63,900 nucleotides of DNA from Candidatus Didemnitutus sp. Lineage in GTDB: Bacteria > Verrucomicrobiota > Verrucomicrobiia > Opitutales > Opitutaceae. A program made the position numbers and the translations under genes. The notes beneath the pieces were generated by a model, which had not been told where the DNA came from, did no database searches, and saw only the letters and a list, made by a program, of their open reading frames with translations. Of the stretch, positions 38,076-45,970 are shown in pieces (the first letter of the stretch is position 1; the number at the start of each line of letters is the position of its first letter). The DNA lies in contig JAMPXH010000007.1 of assembly GCA_023701285.1 (NCBI GenBank), positions 1 through 63,900 on the forward strand, in the 5' to 3' direction.

Positions 38076-40091
38076 ATGACTCACCCCGTCACGGTCACGC
38101 ATTCCGTCGATGGCGACGGCATCGGCTGGATCACCTTCGACGATCCCGCGAGCCGCGCCAATGTTTTCAACCCCGCCACGCAGGCCGCGCTGCGCGCCGC
38201 CGTGGAGGCGCTCGCCGCCCAGCCGGTGCGCGCGGTCGTCGTCACCAGCGCGAAGGAGAAGATCTTCATCGCCGGCGCGGACCTCAAGTGGCTCGGCCGG
38301 CTGGAGGACGCCGCGGCCGCGCGCGCCGCCTCGCGAGCGGGGCAGGAGCTGTTCGCGTTGCTCGACAACTTTAAGGTGCCGGTCGTGTGTGCGATCCACG
38401 GCGCGTGCGCCGGCGGCGGCTTCGAGCTCGCGCTCGCGTGCCACTGGCGCGTGGCGAGCGACGCGCCCGCGACGGTCATCGGCCTGCCCGAGGTCGGCAT
38501 CGGTTTGATCCCGGGTTGGGGTGGTTGCGCGCGGTTGCCGCGTCTCATCGGCGCGGCGGCGGCGGTGGAACACATTCTCAAGGCCCAGCTCGTGCCCGCG
38601 GCGGAGGCGCTCCGCGCGGGTCTGATCGACGAGGTTGCGTCCGCTGCCGAGCTGCGCGAGCGGGCGAAGGCCGCCGCGCTCAAGCTCGCTGCGGGCGGCA
38701 AACCGGCGCGCGCCACCGGGGCACCGGCGGGCGCGGCGTTCTTCGCTGCGCAGCGCAAATCCGCGCTCACGCGCCTGCGCGGTCAGCCCGCGCCGCTCGC
38801 CGTGCTCGATGCGATCGAGCAGGGCGCGACCTTGCCGCTCGCCGCCGCACTCGACCTCGAGGCGGCGCTCTTCGGCGACATCGCGGCCGGCGAGGTCGCG
38901 CAGAACATGGTGCACGTCTTCTTCCTCAAGGACGCCGTGAAGAAGATCACGGTCGACGCGTGGTTCCCGAAATCCGAAGGCGCGCCGGCCGCGGCGCCCG
39001 CCCCGTTCCGCAAGATCGGGGTCGTGGGCGCGGGCGTGATGGGTTCCGGCATCGCGCAGTGGTGCGCGGCGCGCGGCTACGAGGTCGTGTTGCGCGACGT
39101 GAAGCCCGAGTTGCTCGAGCGCGGGCTCGGCGTGATCAAGGCGCTCTTCGACGAGGCCGCGAAGCGCGGCAAGCTTTCCCCGGCCGCCGCCGCGCAGGGC
39201 TGGGCGCGCGTGAAGGGCACGACGGAGCTCGCGCCCTTCGCGGATTGCGACCTCGTGGTCGAGGCGATCGTCGAGCGCGTCGCGGACAAGCAGCGGCTCT
39301 TCGCCGAGCTGACGCAGGTCGTGCGCCCCGATTGCGTGCTCGCGTCGAACACGTCGGCGCTGCCCATCGAGGAGCTGGCGGCGACGGCCACGTTCCCCGG
39401 CCGCACGATCGGCATCCATTTCTTCAATCCCGTCAGCCGCATGCCGCTGGTCGAGCTGGTGCTCTCGCCGCACACGACGCGCGACACGGCGGAGCGCGTG
39501 CTCGCGTTCGCCAAGCAGCTGGGCAAGACGCCGGTCATCTGCCGCTCGTCGCCCGGCTTCCTCGTCACGCGTGCGCTGTTCTTCTACCTCAACGAGGCCT
39601 GCCTCCTCTGGGAGCAGGGCGTGCCCGCGGCGGCGCTCGACGCCGCGATGCGCGACTGGGGCTGGCCGATGGGGCCGATGCGGCTGATCGACGAAGTCGG
39701 CGTCGACGTGACGGACTTCATCTACGGTGAGATGGCGCACTATTTCCCCGCGCGTTTCCGCGCCGCCACCGTGTGCCGCCGCATGCTCGCGGCCGGCCTG
39801 AAGGGGCGGAAGAACGGCGCCTCCTCCGGCTTCTACACCTACGCCGGCGGCAAGGAGGCCCCCAACCCCGCGCTGCAGGCGCTCGCGCCCGCGGCGATGA
39901 AGGCGATGGACGCGCGCGCGATCCAGGATCATCTCAACGGCGTGATGATCGCCGAGACGCAGCGCGTGCTCGACGAAGGCGTGTTGAAATCGGCCGACGA
40001 CGCGGACTTTGCGCTGCTCATGGGCGCGGGCTTCCCGGCGTTCCGCGGCGGACTCATGCGCTACGCGCGTCGCACCGGCCGGAGCGCGTGA
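38076..40091 (+). CDS. Bifunctional enoyl-CoA hydratase / 3-hydroxyacyl-CoA dehydrogenase (FadB/FadJ-like)
   Basis: 671 residues, a little shorter than FadB (729) or FadJ (714). N-terminal crotonase part with the oxyanion loop AIHGACAGGGFELALACHW and the two catalytic glutamates E117 and E139 (PEVGIGLIPGWGG). The NAD-binding part starts near 308 (KIGVVGAGVMGSGIAQWCAARGYEVVLRD), with the catalytic His in IGIHFFNPVSRMPLVELV. C-terminal dehydrogenase domains are complete (GWPMGPMRLIDEVGVDV). It performs hydration and oxidation in beta-oxidation or in branched-chain acyl-CoA breakdown. No thiolase gene is adjacent. Confidence 0.92.
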   Translation: MTHPVTVTHSVDGDGIGWITFDDPASRANVFNPATQAALRAAVEALAAQPVRAVVVTSAKEKIFIAGADLKWLGRLEDAAAARAASRAGQELFALLDNFKVPVVCAIHGACAGGGFELALACHWRVASDAPATVIGLPEVGIGLIPGWGGCARLPRLIGAAAAVEHILKAQLVPAAEALRAGLIDEVASAAELRERAKAAALKLAAGGKPARATGAPAGAAFFAAQRKSALTRLRGQPAPLAVLDAIEQGATLPLAAALDLEAALFGDIAAGEVAQNMVHVFFLKDAVKKITVDAWFPKSEGAPAAAPAPFRKIGVVGAGVMGSGIAQWCAARGYEVVLRDVKPELLERGLGVIKALFDEAAKRGKLSPAAAAQGWARVKGTTELAPFADCDLVVEAIVERVADKQRLFAELTQVVRPDCVLASNTSALPIEELAATATFPGRTIGIHFFNPVSRMPLVELVLSPHTTRDTAERVLAFAKQLGKTPVICRSSPGFLVTRALFFYLNEACLLWEQGVPAAALDAAMRDWGWPMGPMRLIDEVGVDVTDFIYGEMAHYFPARFRAATVCRRMLAAGLKGRKNGASSGFYTYAGGKEAPNPALQALAPAAMKAMDARAIQDHLNGVMIAETQRVLDEGVLKSADDADFALLMGAGFPAFRGGLMRYARRTGRSA

Positions 40092-40260: not shown

Positions 40261-43200
40261 ATGGCCCACGCCGCGATCCCGCCTTTGAATCAGGAACAAC
40301 GCCGTCACTTGCTGCGCACGATGCTCGAGAGCCGTCTCGGCGATCTGCGCGAGGAAAACCTGAACCGGCAGGGCAAGGGGCATTTCCACGTCTCCGGGCG
40401 CGGCCACGAGGCGCTGTGCGCCCTCGGCGCGCAGCTGCGCGCGGGCGACTACGTCGTGCCGTATTACCGCGACCGCGGCCTCGTGATGGGGCGCGGCCTC
40501 GGCACGCGCCACCTCGCGCTGGAGTATTTCGCCAAGCGCGAGTCCGTCTCCCGCGGCCGCATGATGCCGTCGCATTTCTCCTGCCGGGCGTTGAACATCG
40601 TCACCGTCTCCACGCCGCTCGGTGCGCAGCTGCTGCCCGCGTGCGGCATCGCCTGGGGCCTGCAGCTCGACGGCAAGGACGGCGTGGTCGTCACCACGAT
40701 CGGCGACGCCGCCACGCGCCAGGGCGATTTCTACGAAGCCGTCGCCTTCGCGGCGGAGCGCAAGCTGCCCGTGCTCTTCATCGTCGAGGACAACGCCTAC
40801 GGCATCTCCACGCCGACGCGGAAGACCAACCCGCTCGCGCTCGACGTGCTCAACCGCGCGCAGTGGCGCGCCGTCGACGGGCACGACATCGAGGCCGTGC
40901 ACGCCGCCACGCAGGAGGCGCTCGCCCAGCTCCGCGCCGGCGGCGGTCCGGTCTTCCTCTGGTGTCAGGTGGAGCGGCTCTCCAGCCACACGAGTTCCGA
41001 CGACCACACGCTCTACCGCTCGAAGGAGGACATCGCGGCGATGGAGCGGCGCGATCCCATCCGCGTGCTCCGCGACCGCATGATCGCGGCCGGCGAGCTG
41101 ACCGCGGCGGAGTTCACGCGGCTCGAGGAGGAGATCAAGGAGCGCGTGCGCGCCGAATACGCCGCCGCCGAACAGGCCGAGGATCCGCGCGCCGACGAGC
41201 TGTTCCACGAGGTCACCGGCCCGCTGCCAGAGCTGGACGAGGAATTGTTCAAGCCCGGCAGCTACCGCATGGGCGACCTCATCAACCGCACGCTCCGCGC
41301 CGGCCTCGACGCCGAGCCGGGTCGCATGATCTTCGGCGAGGATGTGGAGGACCCGAAGGGTGGCGTCTTCCGCCTCACGCAGAAGCTCTCGACGGATTTT
41401 CCGGAGCAGGTGTTCAACTCGCCGCTGGCCGAGTCGACGATCGTCGGCGTCGCGGGCGGCCTCGCGCTCTACGGCCGCCGGCCGGTGTTCGAGCTGCAGT
41501 TCATCGATTTCAGTTTCCCCGGTTTCAACCAGGTCGTGTCGAACCTCGCCAACATCCGCTGGCGCTCGAACGGCGAGTGGAAGGTGCCGGCCGTGTTCTA
41601 CGCGCCCTACGGCGCCTACCTGCCCGGCGGCTCGCTCTGGCATTCGCAGGCCAACGAGGCCGCTTACGCGCATTTCCCCGGCATCAACATCGTCATCCCG
41701 TCCACGCCCGAGGATGCGGCCGGCCTGCTCTGGACCGCGATGCACAGCGAGGACATCACCTTCTTCCTCGCGCCGAAGCACATGCTCTGGGCCGAGCGCG
41801 CCAGCGCCACACCGATCCGTTCGATCCCGCTCGGCCGCGCTCGCGTCGTCACCGAGGGCGAGGACCTCACACTTGTCGCCTGGGGCAACACGGTGGAGAA
41901 GGCGCAGGAGGCCATTGCCGAGCTGCAGGGCGAGGTCAGCGTCGAGTTGATCGACCTGCGCTCCATCGTGCCGTGGGACAAGGAAACGCTCGCCTCGTCC
42001 GTCCGCAAGACCGGCCGCCTCATCGTCGTGCAGGAGGACACCGAAGCTTGCTCCGTCGGCCAGATGATCATCCAGCACCTCACGGGCCGGCCCGAGATCT
42101 TCGCCGCGTTGAAAGCGCCGCCGACGCTCGTGACGAAGGGCAACGTGATGATCGGCTACAATCCGATCTACGAATACGCCGCGCTGCCCGACGTGCCGCG
42201 CATCGTCGACGCCATCTGGCAAAGCGTCTCCGTCGATCTCGCCCGCGGCGCCGCCACCCCGGCCCGCGCCGTGCCCGCCACGCCGCCCCCGGCACCCGCG
42301 CCGGCCCGGCCCGTCGACACGCATGCGCCGCAAAACACCGTCATCGCCGGCACGCACGACATCCTCGTGCGCGTGCCGATCATGGGCGAGGGCCTGCGCT
42401 CGGCCAAGGTCGTCGCGCTGAACAAGCAGCCCGGCGACGCGATCAAGCACGACGAGGTGCTCTGCGAACTCGAGACGGACAAGGCCGTCTACCCGGTCGA
42501 GTCCTCGTTTGCCGGCCGGTTGAAGGAGTGGCGCATCCGGCTCGATGACACCGTGCTCATCGGCCAGGAGATCGCGCTCGTCACCGGCGATGCGGCCAGC
42601 GTGGCCGGCCTGCCGGTCGAAGGCGCGGCCAAGCCCGCCGCCGCTCCGGCCGCGCCCCGGCCCGCCGCCGCTCCGGCCGCGCCCCGGCCCGCGCCCACCG
42701 TGGCGAAAACGTCACCCGCTGCGCCCGCCGTCGCGAGCGCGCCCGTCGCATCCTCTTCCTCCATGAAAGGCAACGTCCGCCCGCCCGCGCTACCTCCCGC
42801 CATCACCAAGCGACTCGATGCGGTCGTCCCTGCGAACATGCTGATGGACGTGCGCTGGGATGCGCTCCGCGCCGCGCGCGAAGCGGCGAAGCAGCGCCTC
42901 GGCAAGGACGCGCCCTCGCCCTCGGCGTTGATGGCGTGGTGCGTCACGCGCGCGCAGGAGAAGCACGCGGCGTTCCGCTGCCTCGCGGCCAAGGACGGCG
43001 CGATTTACGAGCAGGCCGACTTCGACCAGGGCGTGGCCGTGGCGCTCGAGGGCGACCGGCTCGCGACTGCGGCGATCGCGGCGGCGAACCGGCTCTCTTT
43101 CGCGGATTTCTGCGCCGCCTATCAGCGCGCCATCGAGGAGACGCGTGCCGGCAAGATCGTCGACGTGCAGGCTCCGCTCAACATCACCAGTCTCGGTGCG

Positions 43201-43425
43201 TTCGGCGTCGAGTGCGCGACGCCCATCGTGGTGCCGCCGGCCGTGGGCACGCTCTTCATCGGCACGGCGCACGAGCGCATGGTGAACGACGGCGGCGTCA
43301 TCCATCCCTGCGAAGTCGTCACGCTCTCGCTCACCTTCGATCACAAGGTCGTGAACGGCGCCGGCGCGGCGGCGTTCATGCAGGACGTGAAGCGCGAGTT
43401 CGAGACGTTCCGCCTGCCGGCCTGA
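40261..43425 (+). CDS. Single-chain 2-oxoacid dehydrogenase: E1-alpha, E1-beta and lipoyl-E2 fused
   Basis: 1054 residues. E1-alpha (about 10-320) has the TPP motif IGDAATRQGDFYEAV…EDNAYG (148-181). E1-beta (about 335-660) has the IFGEDVEDPKGGVF and FNSPLAESTIVGVAGG signatures. A Pro/Ala linker leads to one lipoyl domain (about 698-778) with lipoylation site K741 (ELETDKAVYP). A second Ala/Pro linker carries PAAAPAAPR twice (792-809). The acyltransferase domain (about 843-1052) has NITSLGAFG and the active-site region FDHKVVNGAGAAAF, with H1028. No peripheral subunit-binding domain is visible between lipoyl and catalytic parts. The branched-chain 2-oxoacid is the likeliest substrate by context. 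E3 is not encoded in the window. Confidence 0.93.
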   Translation: MAHAAIPPLNQEQRRHLLRTMLESRLGDLREENLNRQGKGHFHVSGRGHEALCALGAQLRAGDYVVPYYRDRGLVMGRGLGTRHLALEYFAKRESVSRGRMMPSHFSCRALNIVTVSTPLGAQLLPACGIAWGLQLDGKDGVVVTTIGDAATRQGDFYEAVAFAAERKLPVLFIVEDNAYGISTPTRKTNPLALDVLNRAQWRAVDGHDIEAVHAATQEALAQLRAGGGPVFLWCQVERLSSHTSSDDHTLYRSKEDIAAMERRDPIRVLRDRMIAAGELTAAEFTRLEEEIKERVRAEYAAAEQAEDPRADELFHEVTGPLPELDEELFKPGSYRMGDLINRTLRAGLDAEPGRMIFGEDVEDPKGGVFRLTQKLSTDFPEQVFNSPLAESTIVGVAGGLALYGRRPVFELQFIDFSFPGFNQVVSNLANIRWRSNGEWKVPAVFYAPYGAYLPGGSLWHSQANEAAYAHFPGINIVIPSTPEDAAGLLWTAMHSEDITFFLAPKHMLWAERASATPIRSIPLGRARVVTEGEDLTLVAWGNTVEKAQEAIAELQGEVSVELIDLRSIVPWDKETLASSVRKTGRLIVVQEDTEACSVGQMIIQHLTGRPEIFAALKAPPTLVTKGNVMIGYNPIYEYAALPDVPRIVDAIWQSVSVDLARGAATPARAVPATPPPAPAPARPVDTHAPQNTVIAGTHDILVRVPIMGEGLRSAKVVALNKQPGDAIKHDEVLCELETDKAVYPVESSFAGRLKEWRIRLDDTVLIGQEIALVTGDAASVAGLPVEGAAKPAAAPAAPRPAAAPAAPRPAPTVAKTSPAAPAVASAPVASSSSMKGNVRPPALPPAITKRLDAVVPANMLMDVRWDALRAAREAAKQRLGKDAPSPSALMAWCVTRAQEKHAAFRCLAAKDGAIYEQADFDQGVAVALEGDRLATAAIAAANRLSFADFCAAYQRAIEETRAGKIVDVQAPLNITSLGAFGVECATPIVVPPAVGTLFIGTAHERMVNDGGVIHPCEVVTLSLTFDHKVVNGAGAAAFMQDVKREFETFRLPA

Positions 43426-44181: not shown

Positions 44182-45171
44182 TTAGAACAGCGCGTTGGCG
44201 ACGACGCCGACGGCGGTGATCGGGCCGGTGTCGCCCATGCCTTCGAGCGCGCGGTCGGCTTTCTTCACGACGCTCTGGATCTCGCGATACATGGAGTCGT
44301 CGACGAGAAGCTTGCCGAGCGTGCCCTCGCCGTTGTTCAGCTTCTGGGAGAGCTCGCGGATGTTGTTCATCGAGAGCTTCAGGTTCTGGGCGGTGGCGTC
44401 GTCGTAGAGCAGGACGCCGAGGGTGCCCTTGCCGGCCTTGACGTCGGCGACGATGGCGCGGGTGTCGCCGAGGAAGAGCTTGGCGTCGGCCGCGGCGGTC
44501 TTGATCTCGCCGACGGCGCCGAGGAGCTCGTCGTGGAGCGTGGGGTCGTTGACGAGTTTGCCGAGCGTGCCTTCGCCGTTGCGGAGCTTGGCGGTGATGT
44601 CCTGGAGGTTGGCGATGGTCTCGGTGAGCTTGGGGCCGTTGGCGTCGACGAGCTGGTCGATCTTGCCGAAGAGCGAGCCGGAGCCGCCCTTGCCGCCGAG
44701 GGCCTGGCCGATGTTGTCGGCGACGCCTTCGAGCTTGGCGCCGAGGGATCCGAGTTGGGAAATGACCTCGCCGATGTCGACGGTGTTCTTGGTGCGGATC
44801 TCCGCGCCGTCGGCGAGCATCGTGGCGGATTGGCCGAAGGAGACGGCGAGGTGCTGGCTGCCGAGGAGGCTGGAGGTCTCGACGGAGGCGACGGCGTCAT
44901 CGGGGATGCGGACGGTGCGGTCGATGGTGAGCACGGCCTCGACGCGTTGCTGGCCGAGGCGCGTGGCCTTCACCGTGCCGATCTTCACGCCGGCCATGAG
45001 GACCTCGTCGCCGGTCTTGAGGCCCTTGAGGTTGGCGAAGGGGGCGATGACGGTGTAGCCCTGCGGGCGGAAGACCTGGCCGCCGCTGAGGGATTCGAAG
45101 GTGATCCAGGCGAGCGCGCAGCCGAGAAGGAAAAAGAGGCCCACGCGAATGGATTGTTGGGTGCTGTTCAT
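44182..45171 (-). CDS. mlaD: MlaD-type MCE protein
   Basis: 329 residues. One N-terminal membrane helix (about 9-27, VGLFFLLGCALAWITFESL), then a single MCE domain (about 36-115: GYTVIAPFANLKGLKTGDEVLMAGVKIGTV…SLLGSQHLAVSFG), then a helical periplasmic tail with repeated NGEGTLGKL-type units (about 195-300). It is the substrate-binding ring subunit of a lipid transporter at the inner membrane. Starts one base after mlaF ends. Longer than E. coli MlaD (183), because of the tail. Terminator at 44101. Confidence 0.92.
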   Translation of the reverse strand: MNSTQQSIRVGLFFLLGCALAWITFESLSGGQVFRPQGYTVIAPFANLKGLKTGDEVLMAGVKIGTVKATRLGQQRVEAVLTIDRTVRIPDDAVASVETSSLLGSQHLAVSFGQSATMLADGAEIRTKNTVDIGEVISQLGSLGAKLEGVADNIGQALGGKGGSGSLFGKIDQLVDANGPKLTETIANLQDITAKLRNGEGTLGKLVNDPTLHDELLGAVGEIKTAAADAKLFLGDTRAIVADVKAGKGTLGVLLYDDATAQNLKLSMNNIRELSQKLNNGEGTLGKLLVDDSMYREIQSVVKKADRALEGMGDTGPITAVGVVANALF

Positions 45172-45172
45172 G

Positions 45173-45970
45173 TCAGGAGTTCTCCAGTTGTTTGAAACGG
45201 GGGTTCTTGAGGTCGATGACGGGGCTCAGGAAGTTGGCGATGGCGGGGTCCTTCGGCGCGCGGAAGTCCGCGGGCGTGCCCTGGGCCTGGATGCGGCCGT
45301 CGATGAGGATGGCGATGCGGTCGGCGATGCTGAGGGCGAGATCGCGGTCGTGGGTGACGACGATGCTGGTGACGGCGGTCTGCTCGCGGAGGGTGGCGAT
45401 GATCTCGCTGATCGTGGCGCCCATGACGGGGTCGAGCTCGGAGGTCGGCTCGTCGTAGATGAGGAGCTGGGGCTCCATCACGAGGGCGCGGGCGATGGCG
45501 ACGCGCTTCTTCATGCCGCCGGAGAGTTCGGACGGGTATTTCTTCACCGCCTTCTCGAGCGAAAGGATGGAGAGGGCGTGCATCACGCGCTCGCGGATGC
45601 CGGCCTCGTTGCAGAGGCGGTGTTCGCGGAGGTAGAGGGCGAGGTTGTCGTAGACGGTGAGGGAGTTGAAGAGCGCGCCGGCCTGGAAGACGAGGGCGAG
45701 GTGGACCTTCTCGCGCGTGGCGGGATCGGCGGCGTCGAAGGCGCCGATGCGCACTTCGCCGCTCGTGGCGCATTCGAGGCCGGCGATGTGTTTCACGAGC
45801 ACGCTCTTGCCGGAGCCGCTCGGGCCCATGATGCAGAAGATTTCGCCGGGCTGGATGTCGAGGCTGACGTCGTGCAGGACGGTGGTGGAGCCGAACTGCT
45901 TCGTGAGGTTCGCGATGGTGACGCCGAAGGTCTTGTCGGCGAGCGAAGGAGCGGAGGAGGTGGGGCTCAT
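45173..45970 (-). CDS. mlaF: MlaF-type ABC ATPase
   Basis: 265 residues. Walker A GPSGSGKSVLVKHI, signature LSGGMKKRVAIARAL, Walker B LLIYDEPTSELDP, and switch His in IVVTHDRDLA. It powers the MlaE permease. The N-terminal extension (SPTSSAPSLADKTF) is not conserved. Four bases separate it from mlaE and one from mlaD, so this is a compact operon. No mlaB (STAS) gene follows. Confidence 0.94.
   Translation of the reverse strand: MSPTSSAPSLADKTFGVTIANLTKQFGSTTVLHDVSLDIQPGEIFCIMGPSGSGKSVLVKHIAGLECATSGEVRIGAFDAADPATREKVHLALVFQAGALFNSLTVYDNLALYLREHRLCNEAGIRERVMHALSILSLEKAVKKYPSELSGGMKKRVAIARALVMEPQLLIYDEPTSELDPVMGATISEIIATLREQTAVTSIVVTHDRDLALSIADRIAILIDGRIQAQGTPADFRAPKDPAIANFLSPVIDLKNPRFKQLENS

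Follow-up and report, generated by a model that had tools for sequence, protein, structure and literature searches.

One reading frame in Candidatus Didemnitutus joins the E1-alpha, E1-beta, lipoyl and E2 domains of a probable single-chain 2-oxoacid dehydrogenase

The window examined here, a 63,900-nucleotide stretch of DNA from Candidatus Didemnitutus sp., makes up all of contig C75; the draft genome it comes from measures 4.02 Mb in 220 contigs, with a completeness of 95.4%. On its plus strand, at 40261–43425, one gene encodes the E1-alpha, E1-beta, lipoyl and E2 parts of a 2-oxoacid dehydrogenase as a fusion protein. The frame starts at an ATG and runs for 1054 residues with no internal stop; its translation matches five Pfam domains, each above its curated cut-off, in the order E1_dh, Transket_pyr, Transketolase_C, Biotin_lipoyl and 2-oxoacid_dh. 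The E1-alpha domain (E1_dh, residues 19–309; 40315–41187) contains the thiamine diphosphate (ThDP) motif, from G148-D149 to N178, and His243. E1-beta follows as a pyrimidine-binding domain (Transket_pyr, residues 337–508; 41269–41784) with Glu391 and His461, and a C-terminal domain (Transketolase_C, residues 525–648; 41833–42204). A linker (residues 649–702; 42205–42366), the second part of which is Ala/Pro-rich and variable in length in the alignment, leads to the lipoyl domain (Biotin_lipoyl, residues 703–772; 42367–42576); residues 662–689 of this linker have a predicted local distance difference test score (pLDDT) below 50 in a structural model. The lipoyl domain carries Lys741 in an ETDKA motif, and a further Ala/Pro-rich linker (42577–42762) occupies the site where an E3-binding domain would be expected. 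The chain is completed by the E2 acyltransferase catalytic domain (2-oxoacid_dh, residues 855–1049; 42823–43407) with His1028 and Asn1032. A search of PDB sequences with the window protein returned E1-beta, E1-alpha and E2 proteins over the corresponding stretches (for example 1um9 and 1dtw). The original prediction, drawn from the letters alone, had proposed such a 1054-residue polypeptide with a ThDP motif near residues 148–181, lipoylation at K741, an acyltransferase H1028 and no E3-binding domain, and on each of these points the present analysis agrees with it.

The window protein holds G148, D149, N178, H243, E391, H461, K741, D1027, H1028 and N1032, and across 22 aligned fusions these catalytic and motif residues are invariant (K741 in 22 of 22), save D149, which is nearly so. 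The roles of G148, D149, N178, H243, E391 and H461 are those known from branched-chain 2-oxoacid dehydrogenase (BCKDH) and pyruvate dehydrogenase (PDH), and BCKDH and PDH controls have identical E1 catalytic residues at the aligned positions. Three E1 domains above cut-off, the ThDP motif and the catalytic His and Glu mark an E1 of the alpha2beta2 type; the lipoyl domain with its DK motif and the catalytic domain with its active-site His in HxxxNG mark an E2. The E2 motif reads HxxxN in all 33 fusions collected, among them one duplicate contig, and HxxxD in the other two E2s of the window's own genome; Asn1032 stands in place of the usual Asp. We rejected the idea that this Asn denotes a dead E2: 1eaa, a PDB sequence, likewise shows HxxxN in the alignment, and the entries 1dpb, 1dpc and 1dpd, which we take to be Azotobacter structures, bear titles on what Asn614 does in the catalytic mechanism. 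Judged by its residues, the window enzyme is probably active. The E2 part modelled alone reached a pLDDT of 87.3, and its top PDB matches in Foldseek are E2 cores (1eaa, TM-score 0.80). The distance from the active-site His to the chain end is 25–27 residues in 30 of the 33 fusions and 31, 32 and 38 in the remaining three, with several fusion rows clipped one or two residues early; the two other own-genome E2s have 28 and 30, too narrow a difference to support a loss of the inter-trimer tail of E2.

Genome contigs were scanned for the fusion with six peptide patterns taken from the window protein, a scan whose reach is confined to close relatives. Among 61 pattern matches, 26 encode a relative, spread over 25 loci whose record titles all name Verrucomicrobia or genera taken to belong there. 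The fusion is a complete single frame at 21 of these loci and runs off the contig end at the other four (L023, L026, L027 and L030); it is split at none. All five Pfam domains are present in each of the 22 aligned fusions, and the 21 rows other than the window protein are 56–98% identical to it, a copy in another record (L033) reaching 97–98%. The proposal that other Opitutaceae genomes be searched was thus answered by finds in that family and in its relatives. We also surveyed 58 genomes: the window's own and 57 of our choosing, hence no random sample, out of 110 (among 144) that gave an acyltransferase hit. A weak PF00198 hit inside a frame of 1021–1140 residues was counted as a fusion. In this sample 12 genomes have the fusion: six of the 15 from the same family, five of the nine from the rest of the order, one of the ten from the rest of the class and none of the 24 from the rest of the phylum. 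Among 745 matching plasmid records, two reach a coverage of the fusion of 80% or more, each in three segments with less than 60% identity, and neither is shown as one frame; one of 33 matching phage records does so, likewise in three pieces at under 60% identity and not shown as one frame. A 15-kb record filed as 'Bacteriophage sp.' (MT835928.1, 6756–10279) aligns with 81% of the fusion as three segments, 33% identical; the contig is probably mislabelled, and the segments probably belong to separate bacterial genes.

No E3-binding domain was detected in the fusion. Pfam E3_binding gave no match in the window protein up to E = 10 (HMMER filters drop most matches above about 0.1) and none in the 22 aligned fusions. 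A profile of our own, built from 29 E3-binding domains that all come from lipoyl/E3-binding proteins found in this analysis, recognized none in 33 fusions; the best fusion score was 1.8 bits, located inside the lipoyl domain. The best of 820 shuffled sequences reached 5.0 bits, against 13.1, 11.0, 9.6 and 2.9 bits for four natural E2s that were not part of the profile and served as controls, so the test is good but imperfect, one of the four controls falling below the best shuffle. A linker in one relative (L032) that resembled an E3-binding domain by eye was rejected, its best profile score being −3.8 bits and at another place. The window's own genome has three E3-binding domains, in the PDH E2, in the 2-oxoglutarate dehydrogenase (OGDH) E2 and in a 155-residue protein on contig C149 that consists of a lipoyl and an E3-binding domain (hereafter the mini-protein). 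Pyr_redox_2 gives 19 hits in this genome, and three of the best four carry an E3-like disulphide motif. For the fusion, the simplest assumption is a free E3, which could in principle suffice by diffusion. The genome also has three PF00198 acyltransferase domains, those of the PDH E2 (C63), the OGDH E2 (C140) and the window fusion; by elimination within this 95.4% complete draft, the fusion is therefore its only candidate for a third complex of this type that forms acyl-coenzyme A (acyl-CoA).

Taken together, these results make it likely that the product of the gene is a 'three-in-one' enzyme, a 2-oxoacid dehydrogenase on a single chain that uses CoA as acceptor and shares its E3 in trans. In such an enzyme the fused E1-alpha/E1-beta would decarboxylate a 2-oxoacid with ThDP and acylate the lipoyl group on Lys741; flanked by two flexible linkers, this arm would swing, the E2 domain at the C-terminus (His1028) would hand the acyl group on to CoA, and an E3 common to the cell's other complexes would reoxidize the lipoyl group in trans. 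No domain would be needed to hold E1, because E1 is covalently attached. The substrate is perhaps a branched-chain 2-oxoacid; only the His loop (HTSSDD in the window protein, HSTSDD in the controls) resembles the BCKDH controls. Since an E1 of this type consists of two alpha/beta pairs and E2 is a trimer, the smallest closed particle would contain six chains, as in OdhA, with an estimated mass of about 0.7 MDa.

In the excerpted text of PMC10415282, actinobacterial OdhA has E1o and E2o on one chain and assembles, with E1 as dimers and E2 as trimers, into a homohexamer, and mycobacterial KGD is likewise a single chain of E1 and E2 with the same dimers and trimers. As described there, OdhA differs in having a 2-oxoglutarate E1, an N-terminal E2 and a lipoyl group supplied in trans; the window fusion has an alpha/beta-type E1, a C-terminal E2 and a lipoyl domain in its own chain, and it lies outside the OdhA type. 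The original prediction was right that this fusion is real but overstated the rarity of joining parts of such complexes: OdhA joins E1o to E2o, and contig C124 of the window's own genome encodes an E1-alpha–E1-beta fusion without E2. A fusion of E1 with E2 as such was thus already known, and the single chain of E1-alpha, E1-beta, lipoyl and E2 is a variant of it. Classical branched-chain and pyruvate dehydrogenases (1um9, 1dtw and genes on a Leisingera plasmid) share E1-alpha, E1-beta, lipoyl and E2 parts and the same E1 catalytic residues, but encode them in separate genes and carry an E3-binding domain in E2. Photorhabdus BkdABC, likened here by description and not by sequence, may be a related idea, as a branched-chain 2-oxoacid dehydrogenase tied to iso-fatty acid synthesis. 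In the excerpts available, an acyl carrier protein (ACP) domain is assigned to BkdB, and a 3-oxoacyl thioester is named as what BkdABC forms (PMC4578411); its product is also described as isovaleryl-CoA (PMC3838401), which would be the ordinary CoA route. The polyoxypeptin system was rejected as a precedent, its subunits being ordinary and separate in the part of PMC3943440 available. Among the matches listed, no open-access PMC paper concerns this fusion or a lipoyl-FabH protein, which is weak evidence of absence.

In an E1 tree of 44 rows with a midpoint root, the window family forms a clade (100/98), which is adjoined by the E1 of Streptomyces plasmids (100/96); the E1 of G128, a genome of the same order, adjoins both (99/96), a placement that is less sure because of the long G128 branch. 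The window's bacterial family has a second E1, which is placed elsewhere. On the Streptomyces plasmids (L008:5956–9789 and L009:4956–8781) an E1-alpha-beta gene precedes a gene annotated as a non-ribosomal peptide synthetase, whose product starts with lipoyl, E2, ACP and ketosynthase domains. This system resembles the window fusion in its sister E1, its lipoyl domain and its HxxxN E2, and differs in being split over two genes and in continuing from E2 into ACP and ketosynthase; from its domains, the start of the protein resembles the loading module of an assembly line, one that would take its input from a 2-oxoacid. G128 encodes one 1131-residue frame (L101:6276–9668) with E1-alpha, E1-beta, lipoyl and FabH (3-oxoacyl-ACP synthase III, the enzyme that starts fatty-acid synthesis), in which FabH occupies the position that E2 has in the window protein; it is the sole case in 39 genomes. 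A separate fusion (L115:3236–6550, contig C14 of G060) has E1-alpha, E1-beta and a C-terminal lipoyl domain but no E2, and groups in the tree with the own-genome PDH, where two long branches meet.

FabH is also joined to lipoyl domains within the window's family. At seven loci (L069–L075, in genomes G085, G088, G045, G142, G091, G080 and G140, none with the window-type fusion) a lipoyl domain, an E3-binding domain and FabH lie in one frame of 521–561 residues; the lipoyl, Cys, His and Asn motifs are present in all seven proteins, and Pfam was run on one. Four more of the 29 lipoyl/E3-binding loci (L055, L060, L077 and L080) have a separate FabH gene directly after the lipoyl/E3-binding gene, and no FabH stands beside that gene at the remaining 18 (one a duplicate; L059 ends just past the gene). 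Many of the lipoyl/E3-binding loci, though not all, are flanked by what we take to be pyrG, kdsA and rsmE. Of 373 plasmid records that match the lipoyl-FabH query, none covers 80% of it. Distant members of the phylum encode further short proteins (L082 and L083 in G059, L084 in G101) that contain lipoyl-like and E3-binding stretches but are unlike the lipoyl/E3-binding proteins of the window's family. The domain orders suggest one donor design, an E1 with a lipoyl arm, combined with changing acceptors. Tentatively, and with somewhat less than even expectation, we propose that the tethered lipoyl group of the fused E1-alpha-beta clade serves interchangeable acceptors, which would be a CoA-using E2 in the window family, an E2-ACP-ketosynthase in Streptomyces and, in one genome, a FabH in the same frame. 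The FabH forms, that of G128 and the parallel lipoyl/E3-binding/FabH protein of the window's family, could then start fatty-acid synthesis from acyl-lipoyl without CoA, a direct step that we infer from the fusions and the gene order.

Upstream of the fusion, on the same strand and separated by 169 bases, lies a gene for a 671-residue FadJ-like enoyl-CoA hydratase/3-hydroxyacyl-CoA dehydrogenase (38076–40091, plus strand); given this gap, the two genes may or may not share a transcript. A FadJ-like gene is upstream on the same strand in 18 of the 25 fusion loci, and this recurrent beta-oxidation neighbor counts in favor of the dehydrogenase reading. Four others (L019, L020, L026 and L027) have almost no upstream sequence, and L022, L032 and L034 have no FadJ-like match. 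Eleven further loci add the gene at L110, L111, L113 and L114, of which L113 repeats L016. The context of the order- and class-level loci was discarded as a clue, the named neighbors being unrelated (RlmN, TsaD, a TolC-like protein, a guanine deaminase-like protein, a histidine kinase and threonine synthase). Farther along the window, on the minus strand from 44182–45970 onward, the translations look like those of an MCE protein, an ABC ATPase and a permease, which together would form a lipid transporter operon of the MCE type.

Several observations weigh against a single-chain, CoA-using 2-oxoacid dehydrogenase. All 23 NCBIfam matches of the window protein fall under their curated cut-offs, and the model of the whole chain (pLDDT 70.5, best matches to E1-beta and transketolase) is too weak to give the domain arrangement. 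At three of the 18 loci with a FadJ-like neighbor the match is a short piece, 36–39% identical, and the neighbor is absent at all six order- and class-level fusion loci (L104–L109) and at L112. The Streptomyces sister proteins carry ACP right after E2, so the acceptor might not be CoA. The E2 domain would then pass its acyl group to an acyl carrier protein and prime fatty-acid or polyketide synthesis instead of serving catabolism. This alternative draws on the position of the Streptomyces E1, the nearest outside the family in the tree, with its HxxxN E2 next door, and on G128, another clade member, with FabH where E2 would be; against it, no ACP domain was found in the window protein or among the 22 aligned fusions (the neighborhood was not searched for ACP genes), and the recurrent neighbor of the fusion family is a beta-oxidation enzyme. 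We regard transfer to ACP as unlikely, and transfer to CoA as the better account.

A second alternative concerns E3, which the mini-protein might dock onto the fusion in the manner of the mitochondrial E3-binding protein. The mini-protein, encoded by the genome of the window itself, was detected in 15 of the 25 fusion-bearing genomes; it was not found in the other ten, all drafts, nor in 7 of the 12 fusion genomes of the survey (G001, G013, G018, G039, G048, G119 and G131), five of which were scored in full and two incompletely, so that misses are possible there (107 of 136 candidates in G018, 107 of 154 in G119). Six of these seven belong to other families, G018 to the same one. Conversely, all nine same-family genomes without the fusion have the mini-protein, as do 14 of 15 family members overall, G018 being the exception. 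It appears to follow a different partner, a second, separate E1-alpha-beta protein: both were found in 14 of 15 family members and neither in G018, a co-occurrence that rests on one contrast because all 14 genomes belong to one family. Since it was not found in seven of twelve surveyed fusion genomes, two of them incompletely scored, the mini-protein is probably no required adaptor, and we think docking through it very improbable beside a free E3. The original prediction had also allowed that resequencing might split the frame, and the window is indeed a draft contig in which a frameshift, mis-assembly or chimera could have joined separate genes. Because 25 further loci encode the fusion frame and none is interrupted, 21 of them being complete at 56–98% identity in other records, the fusion is no artefact, and this explanation can be given almost no weight.

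The single-chain 2-oxoacid dehydrogenase favored here indicates that a textbook multi-protein complex is reducible to a single polypeptide that brings its own lipoyl arm and has no detectable docking domain, and the fusion offers a simple system for asking whether E3 requires any docking. To judge from its relatives, the lipoyl arm may also supply acceptors different from CoA, and this would tie the breakdown of branched-chain 2-oxoacids directly to the start of fatty-acid or polyketide chains.

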